Source: Laetiporus sulphureus 93-53 (lineage: Eukaryota; Basidiomycota; Agaricomycetes; Polyporales; Laetiporaceae). From it: a stretch of 64,000 nt of DNA. The position numbers and the translations under genes were made by a program. The notes under the pieces were generated by a model. That model was not told where the DNA came from, did no database searches, and was given only the letters and a program-made list of their open reading frames with translations. This document shows, one piece after another, positions 10,366-64,000 of this stretch. Within the stretch, counting starts at the first letter, position 1. Every line of letters begins with the position of its first letter. The DNA is taken from assembly GCF_001632365.1 (NCBI RefSeq), contig NW_024468525.1, positions 552,951 through 616,950 on the forward strand. The letters are read 5' to 3'.

Positions 10366-10396
10366 TGGAGAAAGATGTATGAGGATCTACGATTGC

Positions 10397-10404
10397 TATA
10401 AAAA
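10397..10404 (+). promoter_or_regulatory. TATA box
   Basis: A strong TATAAAAA followed by GGGGCGG. It lies 30 bp after the RING copy 3 stop and about 530 bp before the first MFS ATG. It may serve MFS copy 1 with a long or spliced leader. Confidence 0.45.
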
Positions 10405-10931
10405 GGGGCGGCTATCTATTCCGCATCGCTGATGAGTATATACTTACATGTTTCCTACTAGCTGCTCGCATGCTTGCTCGTCTCTATATTGCATGTATAT
10501 ACCCGTGCTTTCCAAAATGCTTTCCCACCGAAGAGCGTCTGCCAGGGGGATTCGTTAGCTCAGCCACAGGCGCGTCGCGTAAGTGTGGCGGAAACTTCGC
10601 GTCGCCGAGTCATCTCGTTCCGGGAGCTGTAAAATACAAATGCCGCAATCTTTCACGAATTGCCTACCGCAACGCTTTTTCCGGCCGTGACAGATTCACT
10701 GCCAGTGAGTGCTTGCTCTATTTGTGACTCTGACTGGAAGCTCTACCGCAGATTTTGACGTTTTCGCTCACGAACTATCTTCGGCGTCTAGATCGTCAAT
10801 GACTCAAATCGAGAGGTGAATCAGACGCAGTGCTTGGCGTATTGGTCACAACTCAACCAACTCTCGTACTTAGTAAAGTAGAGCCAATAGAGGTGGATCT
10901 CGGCCATGCACATCCAGATAGCATCTATGAA

Positions 10932-12698: not shown

Positions 12699-13249
12699 CG
12701 GGTGAATGCGTCATGCATTATCGATAAGATGGTTGATTTAGCGTGCCCGGGCCGTCGTGCGGTTTAAGTGGCTTTTCGGCATAGAAGAATAATGAGATGA
12801 TATCGTGATGTTTCATTAATGCATGCGTAGGAGCTAGCTAGCGGCTTCCTGTGTCTGAGTGCTTGACTGTGTCCGGCGAGTACATAATGCTCTCCGAGTT
12901 CTCCGGTAATGGGGCCAAGTATCGGCCTTCAACAGCATCTGTAATTACACACCTGGGTTAGGCTTTCAATTAGCCACAGGCGCGTCGCGCAACCGCGTGA
13001 TGGCTGAATGCGTGCCAGCAGAGTCATCTCTCGCCATGTGCCATCATTTACTACGCTTACCACACAGACTTATTCATCCACTTGTACAAGCCTTCCGAGG
13101 ACGGTTCACTACCTACAATGTATGACTTTCCTGGTGAGAGCAGAATGATGCGAGCTGATGATCTACTATGCTGCAGCGCCAAGGAGGTAGTAACATAATT
13201 GCTAGCAACTCACGAGGATCTCTCGTACTGCAGGAAAGATTATATAGAC
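12699..13249 (+). repeat. Intergenic direct repeat between MFS copies 1 and 2
   Basis: This spacer resembles the one at 15089-15595 along most of its length. Shared blocks include the trailer after the stop ('gatgcgtca.gcattatcg.tag'), 'gcatgcgtaggagc', 'attagccacaggcgcg' and 'taattgctagcaactca' just before the next gene. The 'agccacaggcgcgtcgcg' block also occurs at about 10563, before copy 1. This shows that each transporter was duplicated with its promoter and terminator DNA. Confidence 0.8.
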
Positions 13250-15088: not shown

Positions 15089-15595
15089 CGTGGTGGATGC
15101 GTCACGCATTATCGGTAGGATAGTTGATATGATTTGCCGCCTTCGTGCGGTGTAGTGGCTTTCGGCATAGAGGAATAATGAGACAAGGTGAGGATTGATT
15201 AATGCATGCGTAGGAGCAAGCTAGCGACTTCCTGTTTGTGAGCACTTGACTGTATTCGGCAGTGCGTAATGCTTCCCAAGTTCCACGCGGTAATGGTTCT
15301 TCAATTAGCCACAGGCGCGTGCACAATTGCGTGACGGCTGCACTCGCTATCCACCGTCGATTACAAATGATGTACGTGACGCTTGCTCGCAGACTTATGC
15401 ATCCACTTGCACAGGCCTTTTGAGGACGGATTCTCTCCTGCAACGTATGACTTTTCTGGTGTGAGAGCAGAACGACGCATGCTAACGATCCAGTGATGCT
15501 GCGCCAATCGGATCACATGTGAGTCACAGGAAGTAGTAACGTAATTGCTAGCAACTCATGAAGATCTCTCATATTGCAGGACAGACCCTTTAGAC
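15089..15595 (+). repeat. Intergenic direct repeat between MFS copies 2 and 3
   Basis: The second copy of the MFS spacer repeat (see 12699-13249), with small indels. The end just before the ATG, including a possible 5'-UTR intron acceptor 'tattgcagg', is well kept, which suggests common regulation of copies 2 and 3. Confidence 0.8.
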
Positions 15596-17424
15596 ATGGA
15601 GCCCGGACATTCCATAAAACTCAGCGACTATGAGATGTATCCTATCCCTTGCGAAGGAGAGCCGGCCGAGTCTCAGTCTCAGGCTGCGCAACTAAACCAG
15701 ACGGAATCAGTACTCAGTTCCTCGGTACACGAGACTTCCGTGCAGGAGCTGGCTCCCGTGGATGGCGGATGGAAGGCCTGGCGATTCTGCGCAGCTGGCG
15801 TTGTACTCGAAGCCATGATATGGGGATTTGGGTACAGGTATGAGTCACTGGACATTTCACGATGTTAAGCATTCATGCTGATGATTCACAGCTATGGTAT
15901 CTTCCAAGGTATGTAGGATTCTACGCGCTTGTAGATTGACGCCTCCACTCGAGAATGCGATAGATTATTACACGTCCAATCCACCATTTGAGCACGCGTC
16001 CGTTGTCTCTATCGCGGCAGTAGGAACTACATCAATAGGGATACAATTTGGGGAGGCAAGTCTTAACAGAAATGACCAGTTCCATTGTCATTGAGTACGA
16101 TTGTAGACGATATTTCTTTCACTCTTCTTTGAGCGCTATCCGGACTGGCTAAAGGCAAGCGCCTGGGTTGGCTTGCTGATCGCCTTTGCCTCTCTCCTGT
16201 TGGCGAGCTTTGCTACCGAGGTGAGGTCATGGCTTTATCTTCCGGAGGCTAAATAGAGGCTGAACAATCCGTATATAGCTATGGCACCTCATTCTCCTAC
16301 AGGGTGTGTGCTTCGGCATCAGCGGAGGCCTCATTTACTATCCCATCATTGTCTGGCTTCCGCAATGGTTCGTTCGCCGGCGCGGCCTTGCCTCGGGCAT
16401 CATCTTTTCAGGCTCTGGCGTTGGCGGTCAGTCCATCTTATACCGTATCATCTCCGTTTCGCCATTCATAGCACCCAATCCTGCTACAGGCTTCGCATTC
16501 CCGTTCATGCTGCAAACCATGCTAGAGAAATATGGGTTCCGTTGGACGTTGCGTATCTGGTCATTCTTCACGCTCGTAACCGTCGGTGTAGCAGTGCTCG
16601 GTATGACGCCCCGTCTGCCCGTGCCCAAGTTCCGACGCGGGCAGAGGCCACGATTCATTCCTCCGCAGATGCACTTCCTCAGAAGACCTATGTTCTGGGC
16701 ATTGGTAGATTTCGTTTCACCAACGGGAATGAATTACGTACTGACGTATCGTATCTCACGACATAGGGCATCGCGACCGTTCTGCAGGTCCTCTCGTACA
16801 ACTCCGTCTCACTATACATTGCTACATACACCAAGGTCATCTCCACGGCGTTCGAGGCGTCGGTAGTGCTCGCGCTCTTCAACTCCTCCGGCGTCATCTT
16901 CCAGGTGCTCACCGGGCACCTGTGCGACCGGATCCCGTACACGTGGGTCATGTTCGTTAGCACGTTCGCCGGTGGCCTGTCCGTGTTCCTCCTCTGGGGC
17001 TTTGCGCGTACTCTCCCTCTCGTCTTTGTGTTCTCGGTCGTCTTCGGCGGCTTGGTGAGTACACTTTCCAACAGCAGCAAATATTGCATCACAGCTGAAT
17101 TGATTTTTATGGTGGACTCAGATGAGCGGCTTTAACTCTGTGGAGCTCCTCGCGATCGCAGACTGTGCGGGTAGCAAGCCCGAGCAGTCAAGCATCATCT
17201 GGGCGCTCTGTTTCGTTTTTAGGGGCATTGCGTCAGTAGTCGGACCGCTGGTATCCGGTACCCTGTACGATCTGGGGAAAACATCACCGCATGCGTCCGA
17301 GATGAGCTATGGGGCGTACGGGTTCCAGGCGCTGGAGATATTCGTCGGGGTTTGTGCTGTGGCGACCAGCGTTTCGAGTATTGTTGTGGCGGCTACGAGG
17401 AGCAGAGTGCAGGTCCAGTCGTGA
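15596..17424 (+). CDS. MFS transporter, MCT type, copy 3
   Basis: An intact paralogue of copies 1 and 2. ATG 15596 gives MEPGHSIKLSDYEMYPIP, then the signature 'DGGWKAWRF'. The 17-nt microexon is 15892-15908 and a GC-AG intron is 16056-16106. The remaining exons give 'GISGGLIYYPIIVWLPQWF', 'EKYGFRWTLRIW', 'NSSGVIFQVLTGHLCDR' and 'CAGSKPEQSSIIWALCF', with the stop at 17424. Twelve helices are expected; the substrate is unknown. One change is 'MSGFNSVELLA' where copies 1 and 2 have 'MGGYNSVGP', which may touch the transport path in the C-terminal half. High identity to copy 2, including intron sequence, points to recent tandem duplication. Confidence 0.92.
16056..16106 (+). other. GC-AG intron in MFS copy 3
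   Basis: Donor G|GCAAGT and acceptor TGTAG, 51 nt, same site and length as in copy 2. Splicing gives 'FGE|TIFLSLFFERYPDW'. Confidence 0.8.
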
Positions 17425-25395: not shown

Positions 25396-26874
25396 CTAGA
25401 TATCTGATTTCCTGCCTCCCATGGCTCTGAAGAAGCCGCGCACGTTCATTTTCGACGGTGATTTACCACTGTCGTTATGAGCGACTTTCCTTGCCGCCAT
25501 TGAGCGGGTGTCAGACCGTGATGAAACGCGTGGCGGTTCTGATGGGCGCTGATGTGAGTGATGGTGGGGAGGCAGAGGGACGAGCGCAGGCGCAGGCTCG
25601 AATGAACTCTCGAGGAAGTCTTTCCGCATATCGTCCAGCGGGTTTGTCGGGCACTTCGACGCAGAGCTGGGAGTTGCTCGCCGACGGTCCTTGTTCAGTG
25701 CAGAGGCAGGTTCGTCGGGCACGGGGAATATGTCAAGCAGGAACTCGGGCTTGCGGAGATGCGGTGCTGGTCGGCGGTGTCGTGTTGGTAGTGCAAGCGC
25801 CGACATTCCTGGTCTTCGCATTGCGGAGCCGCTCCCGAACACAGCAACGTCGTCTCGCGCGTCCGCATCGTCCTGCATGGCATACCGCGGGTCGAGGTCC
25901 GAGTCATCGCTCGACACGCTCCATCTCCTCTCATCTCGGCCAATGCGCGACGCGCCGGAAGCAGAGCCGAAGCGGACCCAGCCCCCATCGACGTCGCCGT
26001 CGCACTCGTCATCCGCGCCCAACAGATGCGCATACTCCCACTCCTCGTCTTGGTCGCGCCAGACGCCCCCTTGACCATCCCTCCAAGCATCACCGACACC
26101 GACGAGAACGCCGTTCACCATCTGTGCGCCACCGGCGCGCGCCTGGGCTTCTGCGAAGCGTCTAATGTGATCGTCCATCTTGCCTCCATCGGCGAGCTGC
26201 GCGAGCGCGAGCTCCGTGGCGAATGTCGGCGGGCAGTATTTGGCATACTGCGATTTCTTGCTCTTGCTCACGGTGTCCTTCGATTGGGCGCGAGTAGTCG
26301 CGGGCACCTTCGGAATGGATTTCTTCACGAGGGGAACAGGAGCGGGCATGTTGGTGGAATTCGAGCTGGAACGGGTAGATTTCAATGCAGAGAGCGAGCG
26401 GAAGTGCTTGAGACCGCGTCGAGCTGGCTTTTTAGGAGCTTGCGATGCAGGGGTAGATGGATATGCGGCAGAAAAAGGTGTATAGGGGACGGCCACGAAG
26501 ACAGAAGCGTATCCGACTGTGGTGAGATCGTGCTTGAAGTCCTTCGCGGATGGGGTGATACAACTCGCAGATGACCTTTCTAATGAAGTAACTGACGGGC
26601 GGTGCGTGTTGGATATCTGAGATTTCTGTTTTGGCGTGGGCGGTGCTGGAGATCCCGGTTGGACGTTGGCTATCCAGGCAGTGATGGCCGATGTGGTTGG
26701 CGATCGAGAACTACCTGATATGGGCTTGTTCGAGCTAGAGGAAGCCTCGGCAGGTGTAGCAGGAAGAGGCTTTGTGGGGCGTTTCTTCTGCGGTGGTGGG
26801 TGTAGCAGGAAAGAATACTTCGGTGCTGATTGTGTCGTTTCTGTAGCAGGAAATTCGGCAAGGGCAACGGACAT
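25396..26874 (-). CDS. Lineage-specific low-complexity protein
   Basis: A single open exon of about 490 residues from ATG 26874 (MSVALAEFPATETTQS). The frame is open further up, to about 26919, but without ATG. Function not recognised. Most of it is Ser/Pro/basic-rich and disordered, with one denser block near the middle ('KSKKSQYAKYCPPTFATEL', 'ALAQLADGGKMDDHIRRF', 'VNGVLVGVGDAWRDGQGGV', 'WRDQDEEWEYAHLLG') that looks like the conserved core. The acidic/aromatic 'WRDQDEEWEYAHLL' stretch is distinctive. The C-terminus is basic ('SPSKMNVRGFFRAMGGRK'). A decayed copy of this gene with its upstream DNA lies inverted at about 62.05-63.3 kb, where the same core is the best-kept part. No signal peptide or membrane segment. 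Confidence 0.75.
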   Translation of the reverse strand: MSVALAEFPATETTQSAPKYSFLLHPPPQKKRPTKPLPATPAEASSSSNKPISGSSRSPTTSAITAWIANVQPGSPAPPTPKQKSQISNTHRPSVTSLERSSASCITPSAKDFKHDLTTVGYASVFVAVPYTPFSAAYPSTPASQAPKKPARRGLKHFRSLSALKSTRSSSNSTNMPAPVPLVKKSIPKVPATTRAQSKDTVSKSKKSQYAKYCPPTFATELALAQLADGGKMDDHIRRFAEAQARAGGAQMVNGVLVGVGDAWRDGQGGVWRDQDEEWEYAHLLGADDECDGDVDGGWVRFGSASGASRIGRDERRWSVSSDDSDLDPRYAMQDDADARDDVAVFGSGSAMRRPGMSALALPTRHRRPAPHLRKPEFLLDIFPVPDEPASALNKDRRRATPSSASKCPTNPLDDMRKDFLESSFEPAPALVPLPPHHHSHQRPSEPPRVSSRSDTRSMAARKVAHNDSGKSPSKMNVRGFFRAMGGRKSDI

Positions 26875-45722: not shown

Positions 45723-47040
45723 CGTTGCGTCGAAAACAAGCACGCAGAACCTGAACCAGGAGGAGAATTAGGCGGACATGAGAGTCGGAGGACAAGCCGT
45801 CAAAGCCGTGATGGAAGGACTGATGGACAGACTACATGAGGAGTTAGTGAGAGACGCCCAGTTATCATTCCCGGCGGAAGCGAGCCCCATCACGTAAATG
45901 AGCGGCCAACAATCTTGATCTGCAACGCTTGTGGCATCAACGGTATATGCGGTTGTAGAAAATTAATTGCAGTGCCAGCGAAGTGCAGGAAGAAGTCCAC
46001 TTGGCTCGGAGGAGAGAAACAAGGATCACCATTTTGGTAACCACGTGACCATGTCTTCCCGAGTGCTGTGCCACCAAGACTAAGTTGAGAAGTCAACGCT
46101 GTTGTAAATCGTCCCGTCTCCTGATTACGATTGTCGTCAATACTGCGTTTCGACGAGTCTGGTATCGCGGCGGCCGCGAACGTAGACGATGTGCGCTGCT
46201 GTGCGCCACCAACGGGTCGAGTCGCTGTCGAGCCTCCCCAGTCCCGAACTGACTGGCTGTATCTCGCCAGCGTCCCTCTGCAATAATACTCCAAGCAATT
46301 TTTATTCACATCCTTTCATTCAATATACTTGTCAGAACAGCTCCTAGTGGATACCAGGTTCAAGGATGCCGATTACGCACAAAACTTTGTGTATTCTTCT
46401 CTCATCGAGTGGCTGGAAGGCGAACAAGCATACTACGTGTTTAAAAGGATGGAAACACCCATACCGACTCGGGACGACTCGACAAGTGGTGTCGCGGTCA
46501 ATGACTAGTGACCAGCGGCTGATCAGAGATGTGACGCGCCGCTTTGCAAGTATATATACTGCAGGTAATCTCATCAACGTCCGCGATAATGAGTTCATTA
46601 ATCCAAATAGGCAACGCCAATCCAAGCAGCAGCTTGAAGAATTCAATGCATCGGGCAATACGTACATGACTAAAACTCAAAAGAAAGCCTGAATGCGATA
46701 ACGCCTTCCATCAACGCAAACAGACTCAGACGTTCAAATAAGTTGTTCTTCCTGAGAGGAGGATGGAGTGACGGTTGCCCGCGATCGTTGAGGACGAGAT
46801 CGATGAAAGAGCATAGGTGCGTGGGCCGGAGTTATGCGCGCGCCGTCCGGGATGATCTATCGGTATTTGTAAGTTGTCGATATTCGACAGTACGCAGACA
46901 CTCTGAAGATGACGTGAAAACGCAGTTGTGAGCCTATGGTAGTACAGCTTGACAAAGCAAAGAAACGGAACAACACGTATAATGCTACACACCACCTACC
47001 AAAAACAGACCGGAGCAAAGTAGTAACGAAGTGCTGTGGA
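45723..47040. other. Intergenic, no gene seen
   Basis: 1.3 kb between the oxygenase stop (-) and the coiled-coil gene start (-). A 108-codon forward ORF at 46366-46692 and a 139-codon reverse ORF at 45890-46309 have no family features. Confidence 0.45.
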
Positions 47041-48900
47041 CTACCCACAAAACACACCATGGAACCCGATCGGGAATACCGTGTCCATCTCCGCACGCGC
47101 CACCTCCCGCATCTTCCGTGCGTCCAGGATGACCAGCCGACTCTGCACCGCACGCTCGTCCAACACCACGGTCAGCAGCACGCCATCATCTTCGCCCTCC
47201 TCCCCCGGCGCTGCGCCAGGCCGCGGGACAAAGATCGGCTCGCTCGGCGTGCCATCCGGCACCTCCCAGACCTTCGTGCCTTCACCACCGGCAGCGCCGG
47301 CAGCCATGTCGAGCTTGATGAGCGCATCCGACAGAGTGTGGCGGCCGGGAATGTGCACCTTGTGGATTCCATACGCGAAGCGGTACGGCCGGTTCCGCAC
47401 GCGCGGCGCGACAACAGGCAGCTCGATGTTGCGCTCGATCGGGAAGGTATATTCGACCACCGCGTCTCGCGTGCCGGATTGCGGAGGAGAAGAAAGAGGC
47501 GCGGGTAGCCGGAAGCGCCGCGCACGGGCGTACGTGAATGGGGTAGTGAGCGCGCCGAGGTCGCGCAACGAGGCGTACTTGGTGAGCTCGATGATCGTGT
47601 TATTCGGGTAGACGCTCATGTCGATGACGACGTCGCCTGTGGCCGGATCGTCGAATGCGTTCAGGTGGTGGAAGCAGAAGAAGGGCTGGGTCTGTGAGGA
47701 TGTCAATCGGCTGTCTGGTATTAAGCGAAGCGGACACTCACCTTGTATATCGCGATAACACCGCCGTTCATGCGGTCAATGACGTAGATGAGCGTATCGG
47801 CGGTGGGATCCCAGTCGGTTGTGATGGACTGGGCGAGATTCTTGTTGAGGAGGATCGACATACCGTAGCTATTTATATAATCACAGCGCATTAGCAACCG
47901 AATATCGGCGCAGAATATCTCAAGGCCCGGGGGATGGACAGAATATATATCCAGGAGAAGGTATACAGAACATCTTTCAAGGAAGAAAAAATACAAAATA
48001 TGCTGTATCCCAAGGAAGGGATAAAAGAGAATCTCAAGGAAAAGGCAGAACTTACTGCTTGTAGTAGGCTTGCCAAACGCACAACACGATAAAGCGCTCT
48101 GTAATCGCAAACGAGTGAATGTACGCCGGCGGGGCATCCTTGATCTCTGCCAGGATATCAACTCCGCCGTCATGCCCACGGATACAGAAGACTTTATACG
48201 TCGGGAATCGGCCTGCAAACTTGCAAACAAAATTGTAAAAGTCCCCTGAGACGGCATCCCGACATGCATGTGCGGCAGCCAAGACACCATCCAAACGAGA
48301 ATCGAGCTGACTGTAGGTCACCTGCGCCAACGGGTCTAGTGTCTCAGGATCGAGGAGCTGCAACCTGTCTGAATCCGTCTTTGCGACGAGATATCGCGGT
48401 GTCATGGGCGATTTCGCAGCAGATGGGGAAAGAATCGGCAGACCCTTCGTGACTGCATTCCAGCCAGGCATGTCGGGCGTGAGGGTGACGTTGACGTTCC
48501 GCCCACTGGGTCCTAATGCCCCCGATGCTGCATCCCAGACGGAGAAAAATTTGCGGAAGAGGCTCTGGCATGGGTCACGCTGCTGACCAAAGGAGTACCC
48601 TGGAAATTCGCCAGTGTCAGCGATGTACCGCTCGACATCTTCGGCGCCCTTGCGGGAGCGGTAGGAGACGCGCTGCGTTTCGGAATGGATTTCGAAACGG
48701 TGGTGCATAGCAAGCCCGTCAAACCAGTGGTGAATATCGACGACCTTGGAGGGGTCCGCGGTCCTGGGAATGCGAGTAGTGCCCGGCCCTGTGCGATAGA
48801 GAATACCGCTCAGCCAGGACGGGATCTCACCGTGGACTTTGAGATCGACAGGCTCGCGCTGTTCTGTGGCATTTTCAAAACCAGGAGCACAGCTACTCAT
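47041..48900 (-). CDS. Carotenoid cleavage oxygenase next to a polyketide synthase
   Basis: A non-heme Fe(II) beta-propeller oxygenase that splits conjugated C=C bonds into aldehydes or ketones. Three exons, about 545 residues; ATG 48900 (MSSCAPGFENATEQ). The N-terminal propeller blade is 'GEIPSWLSGILYRTGPGT' with 'VVDIHHWFDGLAMHHRFEI'. All four iron ligands can be placed: His in 'DGVLAAAH', His in 'APPAYIHSFAITERFIVL', the first His of 'FFCFHHLNAFDD', and His in 'PIGFHGVF' at the very end. The first intron (47869-48055) is 187 nt, far longer than others here, and carries an A/T-rich tail. The stop comes only four residues after the last iron His. It lies 472 bp downstream of the PKS on the same strand. 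The substrate may be a carotenoid or, given its neighbour, the PKS polyene. Confidence 0.93.
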
Positions 48901-49372
48901 TATCGAACGAGCGTGAGAGCAGGCTAGACAAAAGTTCAGTGAGCAGAGCCGCGGAAGACACGACGAGATGGAAAGCCGGGCTCGCATAAGAACTCGAAGA
49001 GGTGAACTCGAAGAGGTGATGGCAGTTCGGAACACCTCGGAGGTTCTTAGCGCTGACCATGCTGAGTAGGCTCTCCCTACAACGTCGGCAGCGGTGAAAT
49101 GAATTTCTAAAGGGCATTTGGAACGGGAAACCGGAAATATTGTCCAATCCAAGCGGGGAGATCCCAGAGAGCGGTTAATGCACTATATACGTATGTATGG
49201 CCCTTACATTCGCGGAAGTGGCTCGGAGCCAGTCCGGATATCCGTCCGCATTATCTTGTACAAATCAATTTAAAGGGAACAGCCGTTAAGTAGTTGTGTG
49301 TAATAATACAAGCACATGGCAAAATTGACAGAGCGTAACGGTAAGACGCGCGGCAGCTACCATCCAAAATGA

Positions 49373-52300
49373 CTAACCCAACAGGTCATTTAAGGCCTCG
49401 CCGACACCAGAAACCGGATTCAAGAATCCGAAATGTGTGCCCGGGAACTCGTGCAAGTCCACCTTGTCCGTCCATTTGTCCAAATCAAATGCCTCCGATA
49501 CTCCCTGTGCGTGCGTATTTGTTCTGATGCCATTTCGCGCCTTCATCAGCACTGTGCGCTCGGCCGGCCACACTAACCCATCCAACGCCTCATCTCGTTC
49601 GCGTCGCTCCATTTCCATGCTTTCGCGGATGCCCATGAGCAGATGAGCAACATACGCCTGACAGAATCTCGCGACCCATTTGTTTCCCTTGTGCCTATGC
49701 TCAAAGTGTTCCTCGAACTGCGTGCGGACATCCTCTGCTCCGTCAATCGCTCCACTCGCCGCCATATCCTTCACGACCCGCATAATCTGAAAGCGCATCA
49801 GTATTTGCACGTTCTAAGAGCGTATTACGCTAGCACTCACGTTGTCCGCCATGGTCCCATCCATAATGATCTGACGCGTGTGCTCTCGCATCTCGGGCCG
49901 AAGGAATAGGGTGGGTGCGCCGTCCAACATGATCAGCGTCTCCACCGTCTCTCCGTCAGCGCGCAGCATTTGCGCCATCATGAGTGCCACCGCGGTGCCT
50001 GACGAGAAAAACACATTAGCTACGGAACCCAAAAGAAAATGAAACAATGAAGTTGAGCATCGCACCAAAAGAGAACCCGCCAACACGGTATGGCCCTGTG
50101 CATTGCTTCTGCTTGATCTTCCCTAGGTAGAATGTCGCCAGGCGCTGCAGGGTCCCCGTAAGGGGCGCCTCGGGCGTATCTTGCACTCCATATACAGGCA
50201 CTTGGATCTTCTGTGCAATCTTGCGCAAGACAAGGACACCGCCTCCTGCACCGTGAACGAGGAACACAGGCAAACCGTGTTTCGCATCATTGAGACGGAC
50301 AATCGTCTCATTCATGTCGTCCTCGATAGATGCTCCGTCAGCGGAGGAAGCTTCTTCTCCATGGGGGGTCGATCTTTGGGTCTCCAAGGCAGCCGCCTGC
50401 TCTGATTGCATCAATACTAACTTCTGCACTAAAACACGACAAAGAAGGTTAGACATAGCCCACTTGTGAAGCCACGATGCAGTAAGGCTTACCTGTCGTA
50501 TAGCCGCTGAGCAATTGAAGCTGAGTCACGTCTAGGTTGAACTCTGTTTTGAGGATTACCCTGAGACGCGCAGCGGTGAGAGAGTCAAGGCCATAGCCAG
50601 ATAGAGGAATTGTCTCTTCGATCTCATCCACGTGAAGCGAGAGGACCTTTGCACAGGCTGCTCGTATTGTTCCCTCATGCGATGTGCCCAATGCCATAGG
50701 TCCGTCCATACCTTTGGTAATCAAGTGACGTATGAGCGATTGAGTCCTCGCAGGGGCCAATCCAGCTAGTCGGGCAGAACATATCCCAATTCCTCAGCGT
50801 TGTGAAGAGAGTCAGAGGTGATTTACGTACATTCAAAAAGCATCTTCCAGTCCACTGCAGGAATATATACCGCATTGCGCGGTTTGGTGCCCAGAGACAA
50901 AATTGCGTCGATGCATTGGTGGACTACCTGTCTCGTACTGACACCGAAAGACTTGTACTGAAGTCTCGGTATTCAGCGACTAATCATATTCTCAACGCTA
51001 ACGCGAATTCTGCACATACCTTCTCTAGTGCGGCTTTCTGGGTGCCGGCAGGTCGCGTGCTACGTGCCAGAATGCCAGCATCAAGCTATAGTATAAACTA
51101 CTTAGAAAAGCTGTATGGCTGGAGAACAAGCGCACCTACAATCGGTGGCACAGCTATGGACACCGTGTTTGGAAGTCCAGCTCCGATCATTTCCATCTGA
51201 AACTGTGCAGCCGTATAGTTTGCTTGCCCTGATGCCCTCACGTCAGCGCTTGAATTGGTATGGCTAGTGCAGAATTTTACCTGCAGAGCCACCAAGAGCG
51301 GATATAGTACTCGTAAGCACAAGGAAGTCTAGTGATGCAGGGTCAACCGCCTCCAACATCACCTGCAGTCCCTTCACTTTGACATCATACACTAAAATTC
51401 GGACGGACATCAGTTGAGTTCCACAAGCAAGAGACGAGAAGCTTGCTCAATTTCCAGTCCTCCTCCGCCTTCAGGTTAACAAAGAGCCCATCATGCAACT
51501 TCACGGGAAGAAAGAAGACGCCAGCGACTGGGTGGTTGAGATTAGAAAACAGCTCCTTGGTCTTCTCTGCATCCAGACAGTCCACCGAAGCAATGTCCAC
51601 AGTGACACCGGGGAGTGCACGAAGGTAATCAACCATCCTTTTCTCCCGAATAAGCTCCACATTCTCGAAAGCCTGTTTCATAGCAAGGTACGATGTTAGC
51701 GTAAACCCACAATCCGTTATTTCACACACAACTCGCCTTTGTCCCAGATCTCGAGGTCAGAACAACATGTCTGGCTCCGTTCTCCACCAAACATCTGGCC
51801 ATACTGACGCCGAGCCCTCCGACGCCGCCGATCAGGACGTAAGATGCACGCGGATTGAAAGCGGCTGTCCCAGCGATCACGCCTCCTTTGGTGATCGGGA
51901 GTTCGGGATCAATGCTTTCCAGGCCCAGCAGAATGACGTTATTTGGCGGATCAGAGTGTGATTTTGCAACCGCAATTGAGAACTGGCTGAGATTAAAAAC
52001 CTCCACCGAAGTAAACAATGAATCACGGATAGCAGGAGGAACATCCTCCAAGCGCCGAAGGAGGAATTCATCTTCAACCAGATGAGTCCAGTCAACGGAG
52101 ACGTATCGCTGGCCACGACGAAGCCGGCGAGGCAGATCTCCGATTTGCACGAGGGTGCCACCCGCTGCCATTATCTGCATTGTCTCCATGCCCACGCTCG
52201 GATCGATGTCGAAGCTGACAACAAGATCCACTCCCTTCGGCGCCCACTTGCGTGCAGCCTCGACCCAGCTTTGGTAGTCGCTAGACGCGTACACCGGTCT

Positions 52301-55300
52301 GAGGCTGGAAAAAGATCGTGCGCTGTGAGGATCCGACACGTTTGTCAAGGTGACCAGGACTTCAAAGTTTGTAGCCTTGAGATACGAGTAGGTAGTGGTC
52401 GCAGCGGCCGAGCAGTCGCCAGCGTGCAGAATAACAAGACGCTGTCCGTTCGACGGAAGTGCCTTCATGATCACTGAAGACAAGAAGGCCAGACGCCCGA
52501 CCAACGCCGCAGCAACGGACAGAGACAGATCGTCCGAGATGACAGAGACTTGGGATCGAGGGCAGATGACGACACTCCCGCCGTGTCCAGACACTATGCC
52601 AAATACCCTGTATGTCCGTTGAACTCTGGCTCAGTTTCGCAATCAAAGATTTCCTTACCGTCTTCCGACGAGTTGGCATTCTTGCTTGAGACCTTCCCCG
52701 ACCGCAGTCACGACACCCGAGAATTCTGAACACCCAGCGAATATCGAGGAAATGGACACGAAAGAAACCGCCACTTCGACATCTCCAGGAAGTAGCTCTG
52801 GTGGATACTGTCGCCAAACTTGCGTTTCACTAAATTGGACTGCCTTCGATCCTCGAGGTTCGGTGATAGGGGACATTGGAGTTTCGACAACCCGAGGAAC
52901 ACTCATGGAACCCAATTCATCGATCATCAGCTCTGCATGCACCATCTTGAGAGGGATAAGTCTCTCATGGATGAACTCCTTTTGCCGAGATGAATCCCAT
53001 GAAGGGTGGAACAACACAGTGAAGATCTTCCAAGCGGAATATTCGTGGCAAAGTGTCCGAGACAGTCCCAGCAGGGCGGCATTGCTGGGCCTTGTATCTG
53101 TGTGGAGCCAAAGGGAGTAAGGTTCCGTCGAATCGAGGCTGGACAGGAATGTAACAAGATCAATTTCACCACCGGCATGGAAGTAGCGAACGATAGTGAA
53201 GTCGTCGTATTGGAAGCAAGACGAAATCTTCGATGATTCGTTCATCACGCGTGTCGAGAGAGAGGCTTGCGATATGAAGGCGATATGCCCGACACAATCG
53301 CTGATTGAAGAAAGGAGGATATGATCGTTGTAACCAGCTGATTGCAATGCAGCCGTCCAGTGTGTTAGCGACAGCCAGGAGCGAGTCGGTCCCTGACGTT
53401 CCTCATGGATTCCCACCCACCCATCGAAGCACCCGAAGACGAAGTTCATCCCTAGAGAGGCGGAAGTTAGACAAGTACGAAAGACAATGAATGCACCACC
53501 TTACATTTAGTACCAATCGCAGACGTTGCAAAAGAGTTGCCATCCAATTCGATCGCTGCAAGGTAACCACCGAGGACAAGCATATCCCGAAGGTTGGCAA
53601 GGGTCCCGCGAAGGTCAGAACTACCATGCAGGGCATTCAACGCTACAACAATATCGAAACTCGCGGGCTCGAGTGCTTGCTCTTCAACTGGGATAGTCGG
53701 GTCAAAGACTAGAGAGGTCATCGTCATCCACGGAGATTGCACAGTTGCCTTCTGAGCAAAGAGGATGTCGGTGTCGCTGCAGAAATAGTCGACGTAATAA
53801 CCAGGGCCCAGCGCAGCATCTACGAGTGCCTGGCCGAGAAGCTTCGTGAGACGGCCTTGTCGAGCACCAATCTCCAGGACGCGTATAACACGTTTTCCAG
53901 CGGTGATTGCGGCATTGACGAGGTCCACGAACTGCATCGCAAATTTGTCGAAGATTGAGCCTACGAAAGGTGGACTCTCGTAAGCCTGGTTTATGATATC
54001 ATCCTGCAGGAGCAGCTTCGACGCAGCTTGGGTTGAGGTCAATAGGTCTTAACCCAACTTTAGTAATTTGACTATAGCAGAACTAAAATTGCTTGCCTTT
54101 CTGACTCTCACCGACTCGGTGTGTCAACTGCAAGACATCTTTGAACTGAGTTTCCACAGACACGCCAATGCGAGGTGATACTGGGATATCAGAGCTGGCG
54201 TTGGCAATCAAATTCTTACACCAAGCCAGATAACGTTTGCTGTCAGCGCTCTCCGGGGTAAAGTCCTCCGGGACGCGACTACACAGCGTTCGCTCAGTCA
54301 GTCCTCCTTCCCAACAGAGGAACACACTAACGTCAATGTAGCGCTGGTATACGAGACAGCAAGTTCATCCAGGGTTCTTAAGAGTTCGACAGTGTCTGAT
54401 TCTGGGGTGGGTCCTTCCACGGCGATTAAGCCGCGTAGCTGTGTGGGTGGCAGAGCGTATGGTTGCCAATGTGTTGCGAACCGAGTAGAGGGCAAGAAAT
54501 CTTCTTGTGAGACCCATGTGAAACGGAGTCCTGCGTCCAGCTCGATATAAATTTTGGAGGGATATAACATCGTTACTGACGCTTACCTTCGACCGTGAAC
54601 AGAACAGACCCCTCATCATCCAAGATATATGCATTGACAATCCAATGGTGGGGCGTCCATTCAGCCATCACAGCGTATGCTCGGAATTCAGCAGGCAAGA
54701 CAAGGGGTTCGATGCTTCCGTCATTGCGGAAAGCCCTCTTTAGCGAGTAAGGCAACTGGAGGCAAAGACAAAACGTAAGTCGCCAACATCTTCCGACATG
54801 TGAATTCAAATAGCGAAAGGGACGCACAAAGATGCTTTCGTTCTGACTTCCGTCGTTCAACATTTTATAGACCTATAAGCCAAAAGTCAGCGAAAGGTTG
54901 AACGAAGAGCCACATCACTTGCCAAGGCCCAGCCGAGAGCCGACTTTCATAATGTTGATCAGATACAGAATAGCCCAGCACTTTATAAGACGGCGCACCT
55001 GAAAAACGCCATCTAGAATAGCGGGGTGCAGGTTATAGTCGGTCGCGTTCAGACCGTCAACATGGCCTCGAATCCAGGCGATGGCCTCTGTCTCATTCAT
55101 ACAGACCCTATTGATCCTCATGAACCTAACGTGACATTAGCGATGTAAGAGAGCTATGAGAGTACGACATACTCAGCGCCAAACTGAGCGTAATTCTCGA
55201 GTTGCTTGTACAATTCCTCTCCTGTATTTGTTCGATGACAGCGTTTAGTCACTGCATCGACATCAACATATGTTATGCTGTCAGGACTGAGCTTCGGTAC

Positions 55301-58300
55301 GCCATAACCCAATTTGCCGTGAGAGTGAACAGTGTCGAAGGGAGGTACGCTCCGCCGCACCCACTCCATGTCGCCTCCCATGGTCTGAAGCGCCGTTGAG
55401 GATTTCACGAACCATTCGGCCCCTTCTTTCGAGACTTCCAACGTGATGGGAGGCACGGATTCGTCGAGGATGCAAACAGCCTCAAACCTGCAGTCCCAGA
55501 CTTCGGTCGCCCCAGGAAATTCGAGGCCCATCTCGACGTATACAGAAGCTGGAATCAAATTCTGACACGAAAATAAGGTGCTAAACGATTAATAGAAAAG
55601 ACGGGACCCACAGAACGATCGATGACGTGATGCGACATCCACGGTTCTGGATTATAAGGGCCTACTCTGAGCCGGGTGGAATTGAGTGCCCTGCTAGCAG
55701 GAAGCAGCCACCTGTGATAAGATGCAGGCTGTGCCGCAGCATTCGCCAGTGGCCAGATCTTCTTGTTGAACGGATAGTCAATATCTGGTAATGTCTTCGA
55801 AGGGTATGCGTTGAGCATGGAGAAATCGATCTGCAAAGGGTTTTTGAGAAAAATCAAATACACTGACGCAGAGGCTGCAGTCTTACCGAGTTCACACCGA
55901 ACAGGAGCAAACGCCCGATGGTGTCCAAGATTGCATGCACTTCCGTCTTCGCACTCGCTCCAGCTTTGAGACGACGTGAGGAGGGCGGCCGGTACCCAGT
56001 TCCCACTGAGTCATGGGCGCCCAGACCTTTCATATACTACAGAGATGGTGAGTGTACAAGAAGCTCTGTTATGGATTACGTCGTACCTGAGACAAAACTG
56101 GATGAGGAGACACCTCAACGAACGTCGTCAGATCCCCATAGCGGTCGATGATCTTCGGAATGGCCGTGGAGAACAACACAGGTTGGCGAATATTCTTCCA
56201 TAGATAATCAACTGTATAGGGCTCAGATACGAACTCGGCAGTCACGGTGGACATGGTGGAGATCACTGGAAAGTGATCGCTGGCATGTTCAGAGAAGATG
56301 GCGGCGAGCTCCTTACGATACGCCTCCTCGCAAGGATTGACAAAGGGCGAATGCACGGCTGTGCTTACACGAAGCTTGCGGGCGGTGACGCCGTCAACCC
56401 ATCTATCGATGTAATTCGTCAACGCGTCCAAAAGTTCCTCGGGCCCCGATACGCCGATATCAGATGGACTGTTGAACGCAGCCAAGTGTAATTGCCCAGC
56501 TTTTCCACACTCGGTTCCTGCCAGAGAAAGTGCGGCATCCACATAGTCGCGGACTGCATCGGCGTCACAGCCAGATATGGCGACCATGGATCCTCCAGCG
56601 TTGTCGACTATCCCCAAGGCACGGCCACGCGCGACTGCAACCTTGACGGCCATCTAAACACAGGAACACCAGGAACATCATCCAGTGTACTTTAGAATGA
56701 TATAGATTTGTTTTTTTTTAATTTGAAGAAACACGCACTTCACGAGAGGCAGCACCAGAAGCATATAGAACGGCGGTTTCTCCCAAAGAATGTCCAACAA
56801 GGGCCGTAGGTCGAATACCGAGTGCGGTGAGCAAGTCAAACATCGCGATTTGGAAGAATGCGATGGAGACCGAAATAACCTCCGCAGGCCAAATGAGGCA
56901 GGTCTCGAGCGGTGACGGCTTGACGCTATCCTGCACGAACAACCCAGTCTTGTCCAAGAATGATTCTCCAACATAAGCTGTGTACACTTCGTCACATGCG
57001 AGAACACTCTCGCGGAATACGGGGTATGCAGCCATTAGTTCCCGTCCTTGGCGCCAATGCTGAGGTCCCTGGCCTGAGAAGCAGTACACCAAAGGATTGG
57101 GCCGTTTCCCGACAAGAGCGGGTTCCGGGAACGCGGCCGACTCCAGACTATCAGCGACTGCATATGTACGATATAACATCTGGCGAGCACGACGGCCAAG
57201 GTGCTCGCAGAGAACAGGGATATCAGCATTGTTATGTCGAGCCTTATACTCCCGTGATAGCGTATTGCATGATTTGGGAGTGAGAGCACCTATCGTCAAT
57301 GAGTGGAGATATTATCATATAAACATAGACAATTGACATACCCATGGTAAAAAGAAAGGGGCCCTTCATGGCACCGAAACCAGCAGTAGAACGGACAGGG
57401 CGCTTTTCATGCTCACGTAGAACAGTGTGTCCGCAGGATCCTGATGATGACGTACATGAAGTCTGAGGTTCAGGAGGAAGGAAACAATAGACAAACCTCC
57501 GAAACCGAAACTAGAAATGGATGCAATGAGACCCTGCTCGGGATCCGTTGCCACGAATTCCTCAGTTGCAACAGGGACACGCAAATTATACTTCTCGAAT
57601 TTGATCTTCTCCGAAGGCGTCTTGAAGTACCCGTTGGGCAAGAGCTCCTTGTGGCTCAGCATCAGCACAACCTGCGAAGGATATTTGAATATGGTCAGCC
57701 ACTACAGTTGCGAGGCAGACCTTCGTTAACGAGGTCATGTAGGCACTGGCATCGGCAGTCATCAGTAACCGCAGATAGAATCACAGTGGAATGGCTACTG
57801 TCGCATACCTAATTTCTCCGTGTCCAACATTACTCTTGACAGACCCAATAACAATTTCCCTTCCTTGTCTACCTTCTGAGAACACTTCACCTGCAAGGTT
57901 AGCCTCAAGGGAGTCGCCGACAACGGTTCCGGTCCCGTGCAACTCGACAAAGTCAGCCTGGTGCGGCTGGAGACCAGCATCTTTATATGCGAGACGAATC
58001 GCCTGAGCTTGAGCTTCAGGGTTAGGTGTTGTGAGCGAGCCCATGAGAGAACCGCAAGATGTCAACGCAGTCCCGACGAGCGTCGCATGGATCACGTCAT
58101 TGTCTCTGACGGCGAGGTCATGTCGTTTGATCACCACAGCTCCAGCTACACAGAAACAAGGGATCCCATTAAGTAAACCAAAGGGAACACGCAAACTAAA
58201 CACACCTGAGTCTGCACGAGCATAACCGTTCGCATCATTATCGAAGGACTTGCATATGCCGTCTGGGCTGAGGACGCCAAGCTGACTGAAAGCGACGGTA

Positions 58301-59233
58301 TCCGCTGGAGATGCAATGAGATTCACTCCGGAAACAACGGCCTGATCGCAATCCCCGTTTCTGATTGCCCGTACCGCAAGATGCATCGCAGTGAGAGTGG
58401 ACGAACAGGCTGTGTCTACGATGGTCGAAGGCCCGAGCAAATCGAAGACATAGTTGATCCGATTAGCGGTTATAGAAGAAGACGTTCCAGTCATATAATA
58501 TGCTTTGCGGGCGCAATGAATCCGCGTGAGCAAATCATGCATAGAAAGCACCTGAGATGCCGTACCCCCTGCTTGAGTGACATCTACATCAAACGGACTC
58601 ACTCCACCGGCTGCAAGTGTGGTGTAAAGCAATGCAATGACAAAACTCGAGAGATCGAAACCTACGACAGCCGACAAAAACCCCGGTGTTCGTGGCCCGA
58701 TAGTCTATTCCACTGCGTTGTAGGGCGTTGAATGCTTGATGAAGACTGAAACACAGAGAAAGTCTTAGATTGAACTTGCAAGCATTTCGAGTCTCTTGTA
58801 ACGTACACGACGAATTGGGTGGACATTGCCTGTCCACCTTCCGTTGGAGTGATGCCGAACTCTTGGACGTCTGCAAACTCAAAATCGGGTATGAAGCCGC
58901 CTTTGGTCTGATGATGGGTACAGATAAGATCAATAAAGATGAAGCATATTAGAAAGCTTACGGTGCACGATTTACCAGGCACAGTGCCATGGAAAGCCTC
59001 CGCATTCCAGCGATGCGGTGGCACAGTGATAATGCCGGAACCGCGACGCTTGAGAAACTCATGAAATGTGTCGGTGTCGAGCCCACTCGTTTCCCCGCCA
59101 GGAGCACATAGGGACAAGCCTAACCTCCATGCTATGAGAAAGAGTCAAGCTGGTAATTAGCATGGAACTAGCCTACGATAGCCACTGCAAGGGGGTCGGG
59201 GTTGCTATAGCTGGGCGCCGATCTTGATGCCAT
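49373..59233 (-). CDS. Highly-reducing-type polyketide synthase, KS-AT-DH-MT-ER0-KR-ACP-TE
   Basis: A modular iterative PKS in about 20 exons. ATG 59233 gives MASRSAPSYSNPDPLAVAIV. KS (59.1-57.4 kb): catalytic Cys in DTACSS (58405-58407), HGTGT, KSNVGH. AT (57.3-56.1 kb): 'FSGQGPQHW', Ser in GHSLGE (56787-56789), 'AVHSPFV'. DH (55.9-54.3 kb): 'WMSHHVIDRSNLIPASVY' and 'LHPAILDG' keep the catalytic His and Asp. MT (54.04-53.5 kb): 'VLEIGARQGRLT'. ER-like part (about 53-51.9 kb): 'EFSGVVTAVG' and 'VGRRVFGIV' but no Gly-rich NADPH loop. KR (51.85-51.1 kb): 'GGVGGLG' and 'SALGGSAGQANYTAAQ'. ACP: Ser in GYGLDSL (50581-50583). TE: Ser in GGFSFG (50070-50072), 'MLDGAP', 'GTHFGF'. With KR and DH working and ER dead, each reduced cycle should leave a double bond, so a polyene acid released by TE is predicted. 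Confidence 0.93.
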
Positions 59234-59340
59234 GTGAGTGTAGGACCAGATTAGGATATGTGGTCAGACGCTAGTGTCGATTCTGAACGAATTCCAGCTC
59301 AAGGGAACTCACACACAAGTGGCGATTGCAATAGACGTCG

Positions 59341-59347
59341 TTTTATA
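59341..59347 (-). promoter_or_regulatory. TATA box of the PKS
   Basis: Read on the reverse strand this is TATAAAA, 108 bp before the PKS ATG. It suggests a strongly inducible gene. Confidence 0.55.
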
Positions 59348-60561
59348 CGTGGCACGTACATTTGTTTTTCGCACGAAGACTACTTCAGATGAGCCTCATT
59401 CTGTGGAGCTATATTCAGAAACTACCTTCATACCCTAAGTCGTCTATGCAGATCTTCGCCATTCCGGTCCAGAATGACCTTGGGCATCACAGACATTTCA
59501 CGCAAGTGGAAAATCACGATCGGACTAAGTAGTCGCTTCCCAAGGGCTGCGGACGCTCTCGATCGCCGCGATCGAGGGAGAAAGATAACACCGCAGGCAG
59601 TCCCCACGGCAAATGCTCGGCAAATGTGGCGTGAGAGTGTGACCTATATTTTGAGGTCGAGGACGGCGATCTTTCTGTTAGTGCGCTTTCATCACGGGTG
59701 TAATACATCCTCCTCCCCATCTGCCTATGGGAGTTTAAGGGAGCTCGTGCAAGAGGCAACACATCGGCCAAGTCGGATGGACCCGCATCTGGGAAGGAGC
59801 CTGGGTGTGTCATTTACATTGCTTCTCAGTGTGGGAGTGTGGTCGACGCCACAAGATTAAGCTCTCAGTTAGCTTAATGTGATCCCTCCAAAGCTTTATA
59901 AGACGGATGGAATGCTTGTTAAAGAAAATCGAACAACATGCGTGAACTCTATTACTAACTCTCCGGGTTGGGGAGTCTCTTTACTGAGCGTGAATAATCT
60001 AGGATTCTCTTCGGTTCAAGTAAGACCGCACATTCAACATCGCCGCGTCTTGCTGAGGATTGTACATCAGGTTTGGTTTCTCTTTTTCCCCTTTGGGTTA
60101 CGAATGCAAGACCATACGTTCCTATTTGTTTTGAACAATTCCATTCCCTTCTCGGATCGTATGAAGGTGACCATTATGTGTAATCGGCCACGGGTATTGA
60201 AATCAGCCTCGCCATGAATGTACTTGATTTACCCTTCCCAAGCGTCCTTTCTCGCGAAATATGTCCACCCATTGTACTTTTGAGAAGCGGCGTCCCACAC
60301 CAGTATCGTCGTTATCTGAGAGGGCGGGTGTGAGGCACAGAGAACGAGCGAACGCTAGCGCTGACCCACATTGTGGTCTCCGTCGATATTCTTTTTGAAG
60401 CAGAGATGCATGCTTTATCCGGAGATCTGTATTGTGCGGCGGGAACTCTCAGGACCCATGACATGAGAGTTGCGAAGTATGAGTCTCGTGGGCTATCCAT
60501 CGCTTCATTCATGAGGTGACTCGCAATATTTGTCCGAATAACCGATTGCTGTTTTGTGTCG

Positions 60562-60569
60562 TATATAAG
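60562..60569 (+). promoter_or_regulatory. TATA box of the small orphan gene
   Basis: TATATAAG, 137 bp before the ATG at 60706. A likely 5'-UTR intron (GTGAGT at about 60620 to TTTGCAG at about 60679) lies between. Confidence 0.6.
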
Positions 60570-60705
60570 GAGCGTTGGGCACAGTCGTAAAGTCATCCGC
60601 AGAACCATTGGTTTATAGTGTGAGTGGGTTTCTTTGCGGCTTCAATTCGATATAGCTTGGCTGAGGATTGATTTTGCAGCGACAAGCTACTTCAGTTTTG
60701 TTATC

Positions 60706-61080
60706 ATGGCGCAGATTACACCCGGCTCGGCCAAGGGCACGGTCGAATTCAAGGGGGACGACACAATCACCTCGACCTTCACCATTGACGATGGAACGAC
60801 CTTCACCTACAATGGGTCAATCACCCTTCCTCCTATCTATGCAATCCTACCGTCCGTGTGCGATGCGGTACTCCACTACAAAACCGCAGGTGCCCCCGGT
60901 TCGTACACCTGGACCTCAAAGGAAGGAGTCAATAACAGCATCGAGGTGACTGTAAACGCTAATGACGGGAACACCATCGTGATCAACATGCCGAGGAGCT
61001 CTTTTGTGAAGCGATCCGATCCCAAAGTCACCTTCTTTAATGCCCACGATGCTCCGAGCGGCTCCTTCGCTCTAGTCTAA
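60706..61080 (+). CDS. Small beta-rich orphan protein
   Basis: One exon, 124 residues, from ATG 60706 (MAQITPGSAKGTVEFKG); the frame is open further upstream, but that part looks like leader and a 5'-UTR intron. Not recognised. The sequence alternates hydrophobic and polar/Thr residues ('DTITSTFTIDDGTTFTYNG', 'SITLPPIYAIL', 'GSYTWTSKEGVNNSIEVTV', 'NANDGNTIVINMPRSSF'), as in an all-beta sandwich, with a helical-looking centre ('LPSVCDAVLHY'). It has one Cys and no signal peptide or membrane helix, so it is probably cytosolic. It is driven by a good TATA box and is divergent from the PKS, so it may be co-regulated with the polyketide locus. Confidence 0.75.
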   Translation: MAQITPGSAKGTVEFKGDDTITSTFTIDDGTTFTYNGSITLPPIYAILPSVCDAVLHYKTAGAPGSYTWTSKEGVNNSIEVTVNANDGNTIVINMPRSSFVKRSDPKVTFFNAHDAPSGSFALV

Positions 61081-62049: not shown

Positions 62050-63300
62050 GCAGCACTTTGCCTAAAGAGCCGATAAGCATGGGCGTTCCGAAACGCATCA
62101 TGGACGACTTGGAGGAGGGCGCTCGCAAGGCATTCATAGTGCTCATCCAGTGATGGCTATTGTTCATGGTCGTGGCAGTCCGCCTTTGTCCCGCAATCGG
62201 TACAACAGGAGCCTTGTCAGAGGTCATACTTTTGGTAATCACGGCTAACCTTGCACATCTGTGTAAGTACCAAGGGTTAGCGGATCCTCGATCATCTGCC
62301 AGCACCAACATCCTCCATCCCAGTCTGTAACATCTGTCTGACGAAATAAATGAACGAGCGTACTCGCAAGTACTCGCCGCCTCAACTGTCTGATGAGACT
62401 GATCGAGGTTGTGGCAGCAATTCGGTTCGAGGCGCCAACGCTCCCACCCTGATCTATGTCCGTTGTCCTTGCCGGATTCCCTGCTACAGAAAAGACACAG
62501 TCAGCATCGGAGTATTCTTTCCTGCTACACCCAGCGTCGCAATACAAAGTCTCTTTCCCCTCTGCCAAAAATCCTCTAGCTCGAGAAGCCCATATGAGGT
62601 AGTTCTCGATCGCTCACCACAGCTGCCATTACTGCCTGGAAAGCCAACGTCCCACCGAGAGCTCCAGCACTGCTCAGGCCAAGACAGAGATATTCCATAT
62701 CCCCGTCAGCTACTTCATTAGAAGGCCGTCTGCGAGTTGTATCAACCCATTCGCGAAAGACTCCCAAGCACGATCTTACCACAGTCAGATACGCTTCTGT
62801 CTTCGTTGCCACCCCCTATACACCTTCTTCTGTCGCACATACCTCTACTCCTGCATCACAAACTCCCTTAAAGCGAGCTCGACGCGGTCTCACGCACTTC
62901 CCCTCGCTCCCCACACTGAAGCCTACCCGTTCCTGCTCGAACTCCACCACTATGCCCACTCCTGTTCTCCTCGTGAAAAGATCTGTCCCGAATGTGCCTG
63001 CCAATTCGCGCTCCCAGTCGAGGGACACTGTGAGCAAGAGCAAGAAATCACAGTATGCCAAATACTGCCCGCCGACATTCGCCACGGAGCTTGCGCTTGC
63101 GCAGCTCGCCGATGGAGGCAAGATGGACAACCACCGTGACATTAGATGCGAAGCCCAGGCGCGCCCCGGTGGCGCACAGATGGTGAACGGTGTCCTCATC
63201 TGTGTCGGCGATGTCTGGCGAGATGGACAAGGGAACGTCTGGCGCGACCAGGACAAGGAGTGGGAGTATGCACATCTGTTGGGGATGGTGATGGAGGCTG
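62050..63300 (+). pseudogene. Decayed inverted copy of the 25.4-26.9 kb gene and its upstream DNA
   Basis: Bases 62050-62400 match, in inverted order, the DNA upstream of the gene at 25396-26874 (about 27400-26945). From about 62400 the coding part follows: 'IEVVAAIRFE' then a stop where the source has 'VWFETP'. After about 62950 the core returns in one frame ('KSKKSQYAKYCPPTFATEL', 'ALAQLADGGKMDNH', 'VNGVLICVGDVWRDGQGNV', 'WRDQDKEWEYAHLLG'). The match fades at about 63300, so the last third of the source gene is missing. Stops, frame changes and scattered substitutions show an old, non-functional copy, although an open frame of 265 codons remains (62952-63749) and runs on into unrelated DNA. 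Confidence 0.8.
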
Positions 63301-63429
63301 GGTCCGCTTCATTTTTGCTTCCCCTAGATGCCGGTGGCTTTGCGGAGCGTCGCGCCACAGACGTGTCACTCCCTGTTTCCATACATCCGCGCGTTATAGT
63401 GACCAGGCCGCTTGTTCAGAACCAGTCAG

Positions 63430-64000
63430 AACCACGCCTTGGCCTTCGCAGATCACCAGAGCTTTTGCCACCGTCGAAGGAGGGGCCAATACTGTCGTTT
63501 ATGGGAACCAGTACCACTAGTATGGCCCCTACAACAAACTCCTCTATACTCTATTCCCTACGGACAGTGATTTCATCGTCTCGCCTAAGTACTTACTGGG
63601 CAACAATGAGGGCAGTGCAGACATCATCGTTTCGTTCGAAATCACCCTTCGTCAGCATCCGGTGCTCATTGTACAGGTCAAGCCTCCCCAACACTTGTTG
63701 CTCAATTCGACGCGGGAGGCAGCCGACAGGCAGATTCGCCTCCGTTTGATCGATTTTTCAGGTGTGTGGCGGCATTGCAGATTGCGCTCTCATGGCCTTA
63801 CGGCCGATATCCTACCTTCAGGGCGTGCGCTCCTTCCTGTCCTCTATGGTATCAGCGCGATAGGGACCAAGCTCTGCTTCTTCGAGTTCGAAAAGGCGTC
63901 GAGGCGCATGATTCCCCGACGCATTTCCGGCGATCCCGAGTTCACAATTGACGTTGCGCCACAGAAGCGGTGGGACAGTGATGTCCTTGAAGCTGACGGA
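63430..64000 (+). pseudogene. Start of a basidiomycete family gene with an in-frame stop, cut by the window edge
   Basis: From 63521 the frame reads 'YGPYNKLLYTLFPTDSDFI', 'PKYLLGNNEGSADIIVSFE', 'ITLRQHPVLIVQVKPPQHL' and 'STREAADRQIRLRLIDFSG'. After an intron of about 70 nt (GTGTGT...TTCAG, about 63752-63821) come 'RALLPVLYGISAIGTKLCF' and 'APQKRWDSDVLEADG', running off the window. This pattern recurs in an expanded agaricomycete family of unknown function that I recall. The upstream frame 'AFATVEGGANTVVYGNQYH' fits the same family, but a TAG codon at 63518-63520 separates the two parts and a 24-nt intron would be too short. So the gene is probably broken, unless a sequence error is present. 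The 'D...FE...VQVK' spacing resembles a PD-(D/E)XK nuclease core with Glu changed to Gln. Confidence 0.6.

Follow-up and report, generated by a model that had tools for sequence, protein, structure and literature searches.

We analyzed a 64,000-nucleotide stretch of the Laetiporus sulphureus 93-53 assembly (C16:552951-616950, hereafter the window; C plus a number denotes a contig). In it, a highly reducing polyketide synthase (PKS) gene of the LpaA type, PKS1, is followed in tandem by a carotenoid-oxygenase-family gene, CCO1, with both genes on the minus strand. Gene models were taken from a custom splice-aware predictor and had no transcript support. The layout of the pair is as follows:

49373..59233, minus strand: PKS1, LpaA-type highly reducing PKS gene of about 28 exons, ATG at 59233 and stop at 49373
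48901..49372, no strand: spacer of 472 bp from the PKS1 stop to the CCO1 ATG
47041..48900, minus strand: CCO1, carotenoid-oxygenase-family gene, 540 aa in three exons (48900-48056, 47868-47742 and 47691-47041), with a PF03055 match of 343 bits and four His

The reading frame of PKS1 was open across its roughly 28 exons, and a GC-AG splice pair was apparently needed for the first intron (window 59173-59131). For CCO1, the PF03055 match covered residues 8-538 of the 540-aa model, and His 211, 262, 332 and 535 were invariant; its paralogue CCO2 on C18 matched the same family with 356 bits. An in-frame ATG at 48987 is an alternative start for CCO1. Both CCO1 (window 48900-48987) and CCO2 (C18, upstream of 457906) have such an in-frame upstream ATG, from which a basic N-terminal extension would be read.

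A Pfam scan of a hand-trimmed 2689-aa model of PKS1 gave the order KS, AT, DH, methyltransferase, ER, KR, ACP and TE, which is the domain order of LpaA and PPS1, with the methyltransferase and ER matches below the Pfam cut-offs. The domains are placed as follows, all on the minus strand:

57440..59131, minus strand: KS region (approximate), active-site DTACSS at 58416-58396
56087..57100, minus strand: AT region (approximate), GHSLGE at 56795
54332..55640, minus strand: DH region (approximate), PF14765 37.9 bits, HHVID at 55632 and HPAILDG at 55028
53505..54047, minus strand: C-methyltransferase region, PF08242 27.7 bits (cut-off 30), changed S-adenosylmethionine (SAM) motif LEIGARQGRLT at 53877-53845
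51900..52760, minus strand: ER-like region lacking the cofactor loop (approximate), ADH_zinc_N 16.5 bits (cut-off 31.8)
51102..51870, minus strand: KR region (approximate), PF08659 86.3 bits
50464..50765, minus strand: ACP exon, PF00550 37.8 bits, GLDSL at 50592
49373..50300, minus strand: TE region (approximate), PF00975 67.4 bits, GGFSFG split by an intron

Motif alignment with PKS2 and PKS3, two related genes on C18 that are described below, indicated that the active-site motifs of KS, AT, DH, KR, ACP and TE are kept in PKS1. The ER-like domain lacks a GGVG-type loop, and a residue other than Lys occupies the site where active ERs have Lys and LpaA has Gly; both traits are shared with the published polyene synthases. 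PKS1 has the SAM motif LEIGARQGRLT where PKS2 and PKS3 have LEVGAGTGRFT, but retains the ribose-binding Asp. By these sequence features PKS1 belongs to the published basidiomycete polyene-synthase type (LpaA/PPS1). The original prediction had described a same-strand PKS and oxygenase 472 bp apart, an ER-like domain with no cofactor loop, and an oxygenase with all four iron His ligands; the coordinates 49373 and 48900 agree with the spacing, the ER-like domain had lost the Lys as well as the loop, and the four His are those given above. It had also called KR, DH, ACP and TE working, where the intact motifs bear it out as far as motif evidence reaches. The weak methyltransferase had escaped it.

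The two related genes on C18, PKS2 and PKS3, were 94.4% identical to each other. L. sulphureus has been reported to carry two near-identical lpaA genes, 95% identical and coding for 2729 aa (PMC7473843). One model of PKS2 was also 2729 aa long, and its methyltransferase Asp 1412 and ER Gly 1979 each lay three below the published D1415 and G1982 of LpaA. Because length, pair identity and two residue positions match, PKS2 and PKS3 are very probably the lpaA pair, a match made to the published description of LpaA and not to its sequence. PKS1 is a diverged third paralogue, 57.7% identical to PKS2 overall (KS 71%, AT 68%, ACP 66%, KR 63%, DH 62.5%, TE 55%, methyltransferase 55% and ER 46%). A second strain of L. 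sulphureus is reported to have four PKSs closest to LpaA, and the passages on them name no neighbours (PMC9602373). On C18, the stretches 404878-418400 and 454600-472118 form an inverted duplication of PKS, CCO and major facilitator superfamily (MFS) genes, in which identity is 92.5% over 10.9 kb for the PKS stretches and 77-81% for the CCO stretches.

We then asked how often the pairing recurs in the genome. The assembly searches covered 38.6 Mb in 124 contigs, compared with 39.9 Mb for the published assembly (PMC9602373), so that about 1.3 Mb lay outside. A PF03055 search and a search with CCO1 as query gave the same three loci, namely the window, C18:457.9-459.6 kb (CCO2) and C18:416.6-417.8 kb (CCO3). 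With a partial PKS1 query followed by tblastn, three full-length LpaA-type PKS genes were found, including PKS1, and weaker, more distant matches were seen on C1, C8, C14 and C62. All three of the CCO loci found adjoined the full-length LpaA-type PKS genes found, again three of three, which exceeds what chance would bring. The order was PKS then CCO in the window and CCO then PKS on C18, where the gaps were about 2.5 and 1.7 kb. When the window was compared with C18:400001-480000 by tblastx, the 119 pieces lying outside the pair scored at most 29.9 bits, and all depended on sum statistics; therefore no other gene appears to be common to the two regions. Pairing at every CCO locus found, and in two arrangements, argues for a shared pathway of the paired genes. 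As a rough guide, the draws not being independent, a given gene has a chance of about 6/13,774 of adjoining one of three named genes, where 13,774 is the gene count of L. sulphureus (PMC9602373).

CCO1 and CCO2 were 65% identical and both intact. Across 482 codons from exons 1 and 3, their nonsynonymous divergence (dN) was 0.28 and their synonymous divergence (dS) about 2.0, the latter near saturation. These values make the two genes an old duplication in which the protein is constrained. CCO3 is a relic, having lost 476 bp in one deletion and its reading frame to several indels. Beside CCO3 lies a divergent MFS gene that matched MFS_1 and TRI12 (TRI12 46.8 bits), and a near-copy of it lies beside CCO2; a divergent MFS gene at both places fits a transported product. 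Elsewhere, on C42, there are three truncated KS-AT pieces in tandem, related to PKS1 (46623-48755, 52922-55038 and 58926-61023), with the later domains absent and no CCO nearby (0 of the 3 with an adjoining CCO).

To place the oxygenase within its superfamily, a profile of CCO1 and CCO2 was compared with PDB structures. The archaeal carotenoid dioxygenase 6vcf scored highest (229 bits), followed by NinaB (142) and RPE65 (136). Beta-carotene, apocarotenoid and plant carotenoid oxygenases reached 117 bits or less, the carotenoid/retinoid range extending down to 70, and lignostilbene dioxygenases, CAO1 (5u8x) and 5j53, which we take to be NOV1, reached 42 bits or less, with CAO1 at 30. A stilbene-cleaving role was rejected on this PDB ranking (42 bits or less versus 229), NCBIfam being less one-sided, as given below. 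By sequence profile, CCO1 and CCO2 thus resemble the carotenoid/retinoid enzymes and not the stilbene cleavers.

The original prediction had noted that no carotenoid biosynthesis gene lies in the window. Exon-wise profile searches of the assembly agree with this, as they detected neither phytoene synthase nor desaturase nor lycopene cyclase. PF00494 matched two loci, on C6 and C2, and neither was retained as a phytoene synthase. The C6 protein was a squalene synthase (TIGR01559, 401.8 bits), and the C2 protein passed no NCBIfam cut-off and had one weak PDB match (CrtM, 22.8 bits); we take the latter to be NDUFAF6-like. TIGR02734 gave six short matches in the assembly, of up to 40 positions and none over the cut-off, and TIGR03462 gave no match. 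One "PSY" is listed in a published L. sulphureus genome (PMC9602373), and it is perhaps the same kind of protein as the C2 match. The assembly contains at least five opsin-like loci, on C26, C39 (two), C3 and C7. All five carry Gly at what we take, from bacteriorhodopsin, to be the retinal Lys position, so that nothing points to a requirement for retinal, and a role of the CCO as retinal supplier for opsins was rejected on the same ground.

The long conjugated chain documented in L. sulphureus is laetiporic acid, a PKS product (PMC7473843). Since a carotenoid/retinoid-branch oxygenase is kept by PKS genes and no carotenoid pathway was detected, the oxygenase would most simply act on the laetiporic acid chain. 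We suggest that PKS1, being related to the laetiporic acid synthase, would make a linear conjugated polyene acid, and that CCO1, a non-haem iron oxygenase, would cut an internal double bond of this polyketide polyene rather than of a carotenoid. Two pathway products would result, an omega-oxo polyenoic acid of reduced chain length and a small carbonyl fragment, and CCO2 and its lpaA neighbour on C18 would stand in the same make-then-cleave relation. That the oxygenase cleaves a polyketide polyene, whether for pathway products or for turnover, is probable in our judgment. For the narrower proposal, a module for making and cleaving a polyene in which the fragments are pathway products, we see the arguments as evenly balanced; here we infer the substrate, the cleavage, its site and its role. 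The original prediction had the oxygenase trimming the PKS polyene, and it gains from the PKS type, the ranking of the CCO, the lack of carotenoid genes and the recurrent pairing, with the cleavage and its products still predicted ones and its suggested link to wounding a conjecture.

Several points weigh against this proposal. A single ancestral pair could have given rise to all PKS-CCO pairs, and for this reason the pairs are not independent draws. LpaA alone gives laetiporic acids in Aspergillus (PMC7473843), and therefore the known products can form without a cutter, which would come into play after laetiporic acid formation, giving shorter products or removing the pigment. We rejected trimming by the CCO as the reason why chains are shorter in the native host, since its laetiporic acids still have both the methyl-keto head and the acid. 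In NCBIfam, CCO1 scored 92 bits with the apocarotenoid-cleaving family versus 78.6 bits with lignostilbene dioxygenase, both far below the cut-off. The lack of carotenoid genes comes from exon-by-exon profile searches of all but about 1.3 Mb of the published assembly, and such searches do miss genes: the DH of the window itself was missing from the results of the DH search. The changed SAM motif of PKS1 counts here too, and a point mutant in the methyltransferase Asp of LpaA gave no product (PMC9893682), so the product of PKS1 may be methylated, unmethylated or none. Outside L. sulphureus, the genes listed around the related Taiwanofungus PKS include no carotenoid oxygenase (PMC11678574).

The evidence from Taiwanofungus camphoratus is mixed as a whole. 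A CCO gene is present there, nearest to CAO-2 according to the authors, and orthologues of phytoene synthase and desaturase are reported as absent (PMC8865532). In a published comparison, a PKS similar to TgPKS4, which has the domain order of PKS1, occurred only in Taiwanofungus and L. sulphureus, and the L. sulphureus neighbours of the TgPKS4-like PKS were called different from the Taiwanofungus ones (PMC11678574). A CCO and a PKS with this domain order thus co-occur in Taiwanofungus, while adjacency outside L. sulphureus is not supported by the published gene list.

Among the other explanations, the one that survives best also has the polyene cleaved, as turnover or self-protection: ageing or stressed tissue would rid itself of an antifungal pigment, with the fragments as waste. 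Laetiporic acids act on Aspergillus protoplasts (PMC7473843), older fruiting bodies are described as strongly discoloured (PMC10093887), and the MFS protein beside CCO3, of which a near-copy lies beside CCO2, has a match to the TRI12 efflux family. However, discoloration may have other causes, and no MFS gene lies directly beside the PKS1-CCO1 pair among the predicted models; we consider this explanation unlikely. The oxygenase might instead act on plant carotenoids, apocarotenoids or other wood-derived compounds, its adjacency to the PKS being inherited from one ancestral neighbourhood and having no functional meaning. The nearest solved relatives of CCO1 and CCO2 do cleave carotenoids or retinoids, and a recent inverted duplication accounts for two of the three pairs, so that independent cases number at most two. 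But the window and C18 have different gene orders and nothing else in common, and with a dS of about 2 the adjacency has outlived rearrangement; the PDB ranking moreover shows no stilbene affinity. We hold this second explanation to be improbable.

A role as a polyene cis/trans isomerase, as in RPE65, would agree by analogy with the places of RPE65 and NinaB, both isomerising, among the nearest solved relatives, and laetiporic acids occur in 7-cis and 7-trans forms (PMC9893682). Yet lpaA alone in Aspergillus gave a duplicated mass set, interpreted by the authors as cis/trans isomers, which makes an isomerase unnecessary, and the archaeal cleaving dioxygenase scored far higher; isomerisation instead of cleavage is very improbable. 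Equally hard to credit is that PKS1, through an impaired methyltransferase, has ceased to work as a polyene synthase and that the window pair is a fading relic, for which the changed SAM motif, the sub-threshold methyltransferase match and the productless LpaA mutant speak, but against which stand the open frame, the six kept active-site motifs, the ribose-binding Asp and the constraint on CCO1.

Other features of the window were noted in passing. At window 8969-17424, MFS transporter-like genes with very similar sequences lie in tandem and were fused by the predictor. Two open reading frames, 25396-26874 (minus strand) and 62456-63749 (plus strand), are alike at the protein start and in inner stretches, and C42:70758-70279 matched window 63521-64000 with 76% identity over 160 aa by tblastx. 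The two frames and the C42 match are perhaps a dispersed gene family or repeat.

The kind of PKS found here is already known, and the PKS-CCO pairing was not found in print. Our literature search, limited to open-licence papers, found none that describes such a pathway, and the main text of the LpaA paper contains no word beginning with "oxygenase" (PMC7473843). If the paired oxygenase does cleave the polyene, the lpaA locus and its paralogue would each have an associated enzyme for a later step, one that none of the papers searched describes, and a well-studied oxygenase superfamily would extend to polyketides. On a wider and only tentative view, a CCO lineage was recruited to polyketide polyenes in mushrooms, and LpaA-type synthases with their own cutter would give apo-polyenes (omega-oxo polyenoic acids) in parallel to apocarotenoids; such modules may underlie calostomal, boletocrocin and corticrocin as well as the fading of ageing Laetiporus fruiting bodies. 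The PKS-CCO pairs are then a testable set of genes for mushroom polyene aldehydes and diacids, and the tools for a direct test exist in the Aspergillus strains expressing lpaA.

Pigments with end groups of the kind that the proposed cleavage would leave are known from mushrooms. Among them, calostomal has an acid end. It also carries an aldehyde, and corticrocin and the core of boletocrocin are diacids; a reference for corticrocin dates from 1947 (PMC11727611). The limocrocin pathway of Streptomyces likewise yields a polyene chain with an acid or aldehyde end, and oxidative cleavage of the chain is discussed in the same paper, but its enzymes are bacterial and of other families, and basidiomycete genomes yielded its authors no lim homologues (PMC11727611, 2025). 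The heptaene pigment core has double bonds at 2,4,6 and onward, whereas LpaA products have shifted double bonds, which speaks against a simple match.

On the oxygenase side, CAO1 and the bacterial lignostilbene dioxygenases share the superfamily of CCO1 but scored only 30 and 42 bits in the PDB ranking. The fungal torulene/retinal-forming enzymes CAO-2, CarX and Cco1 are of the same family as CCO1; they work with a carotenoid pathway, whereas none was found here. The best solved relative of CCO1 and CCO2 is 6vcf, in which the iron-ligand His are aligned, although that enzyme is archaeal, and we know of no link between it and a PKS. On the synthase side, PPS1 of the stereaceous fungus BY1, compared by its description, is a polyene synthase with the same domain order as PKS1 and is 68% identical to LpaA (PMC7473843). 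A further counterpart comes from the same species: PKS1 shares with LpaA of L. sulphureus the eight-domain order and an inactive ER, and differs from it in the SAM motif.

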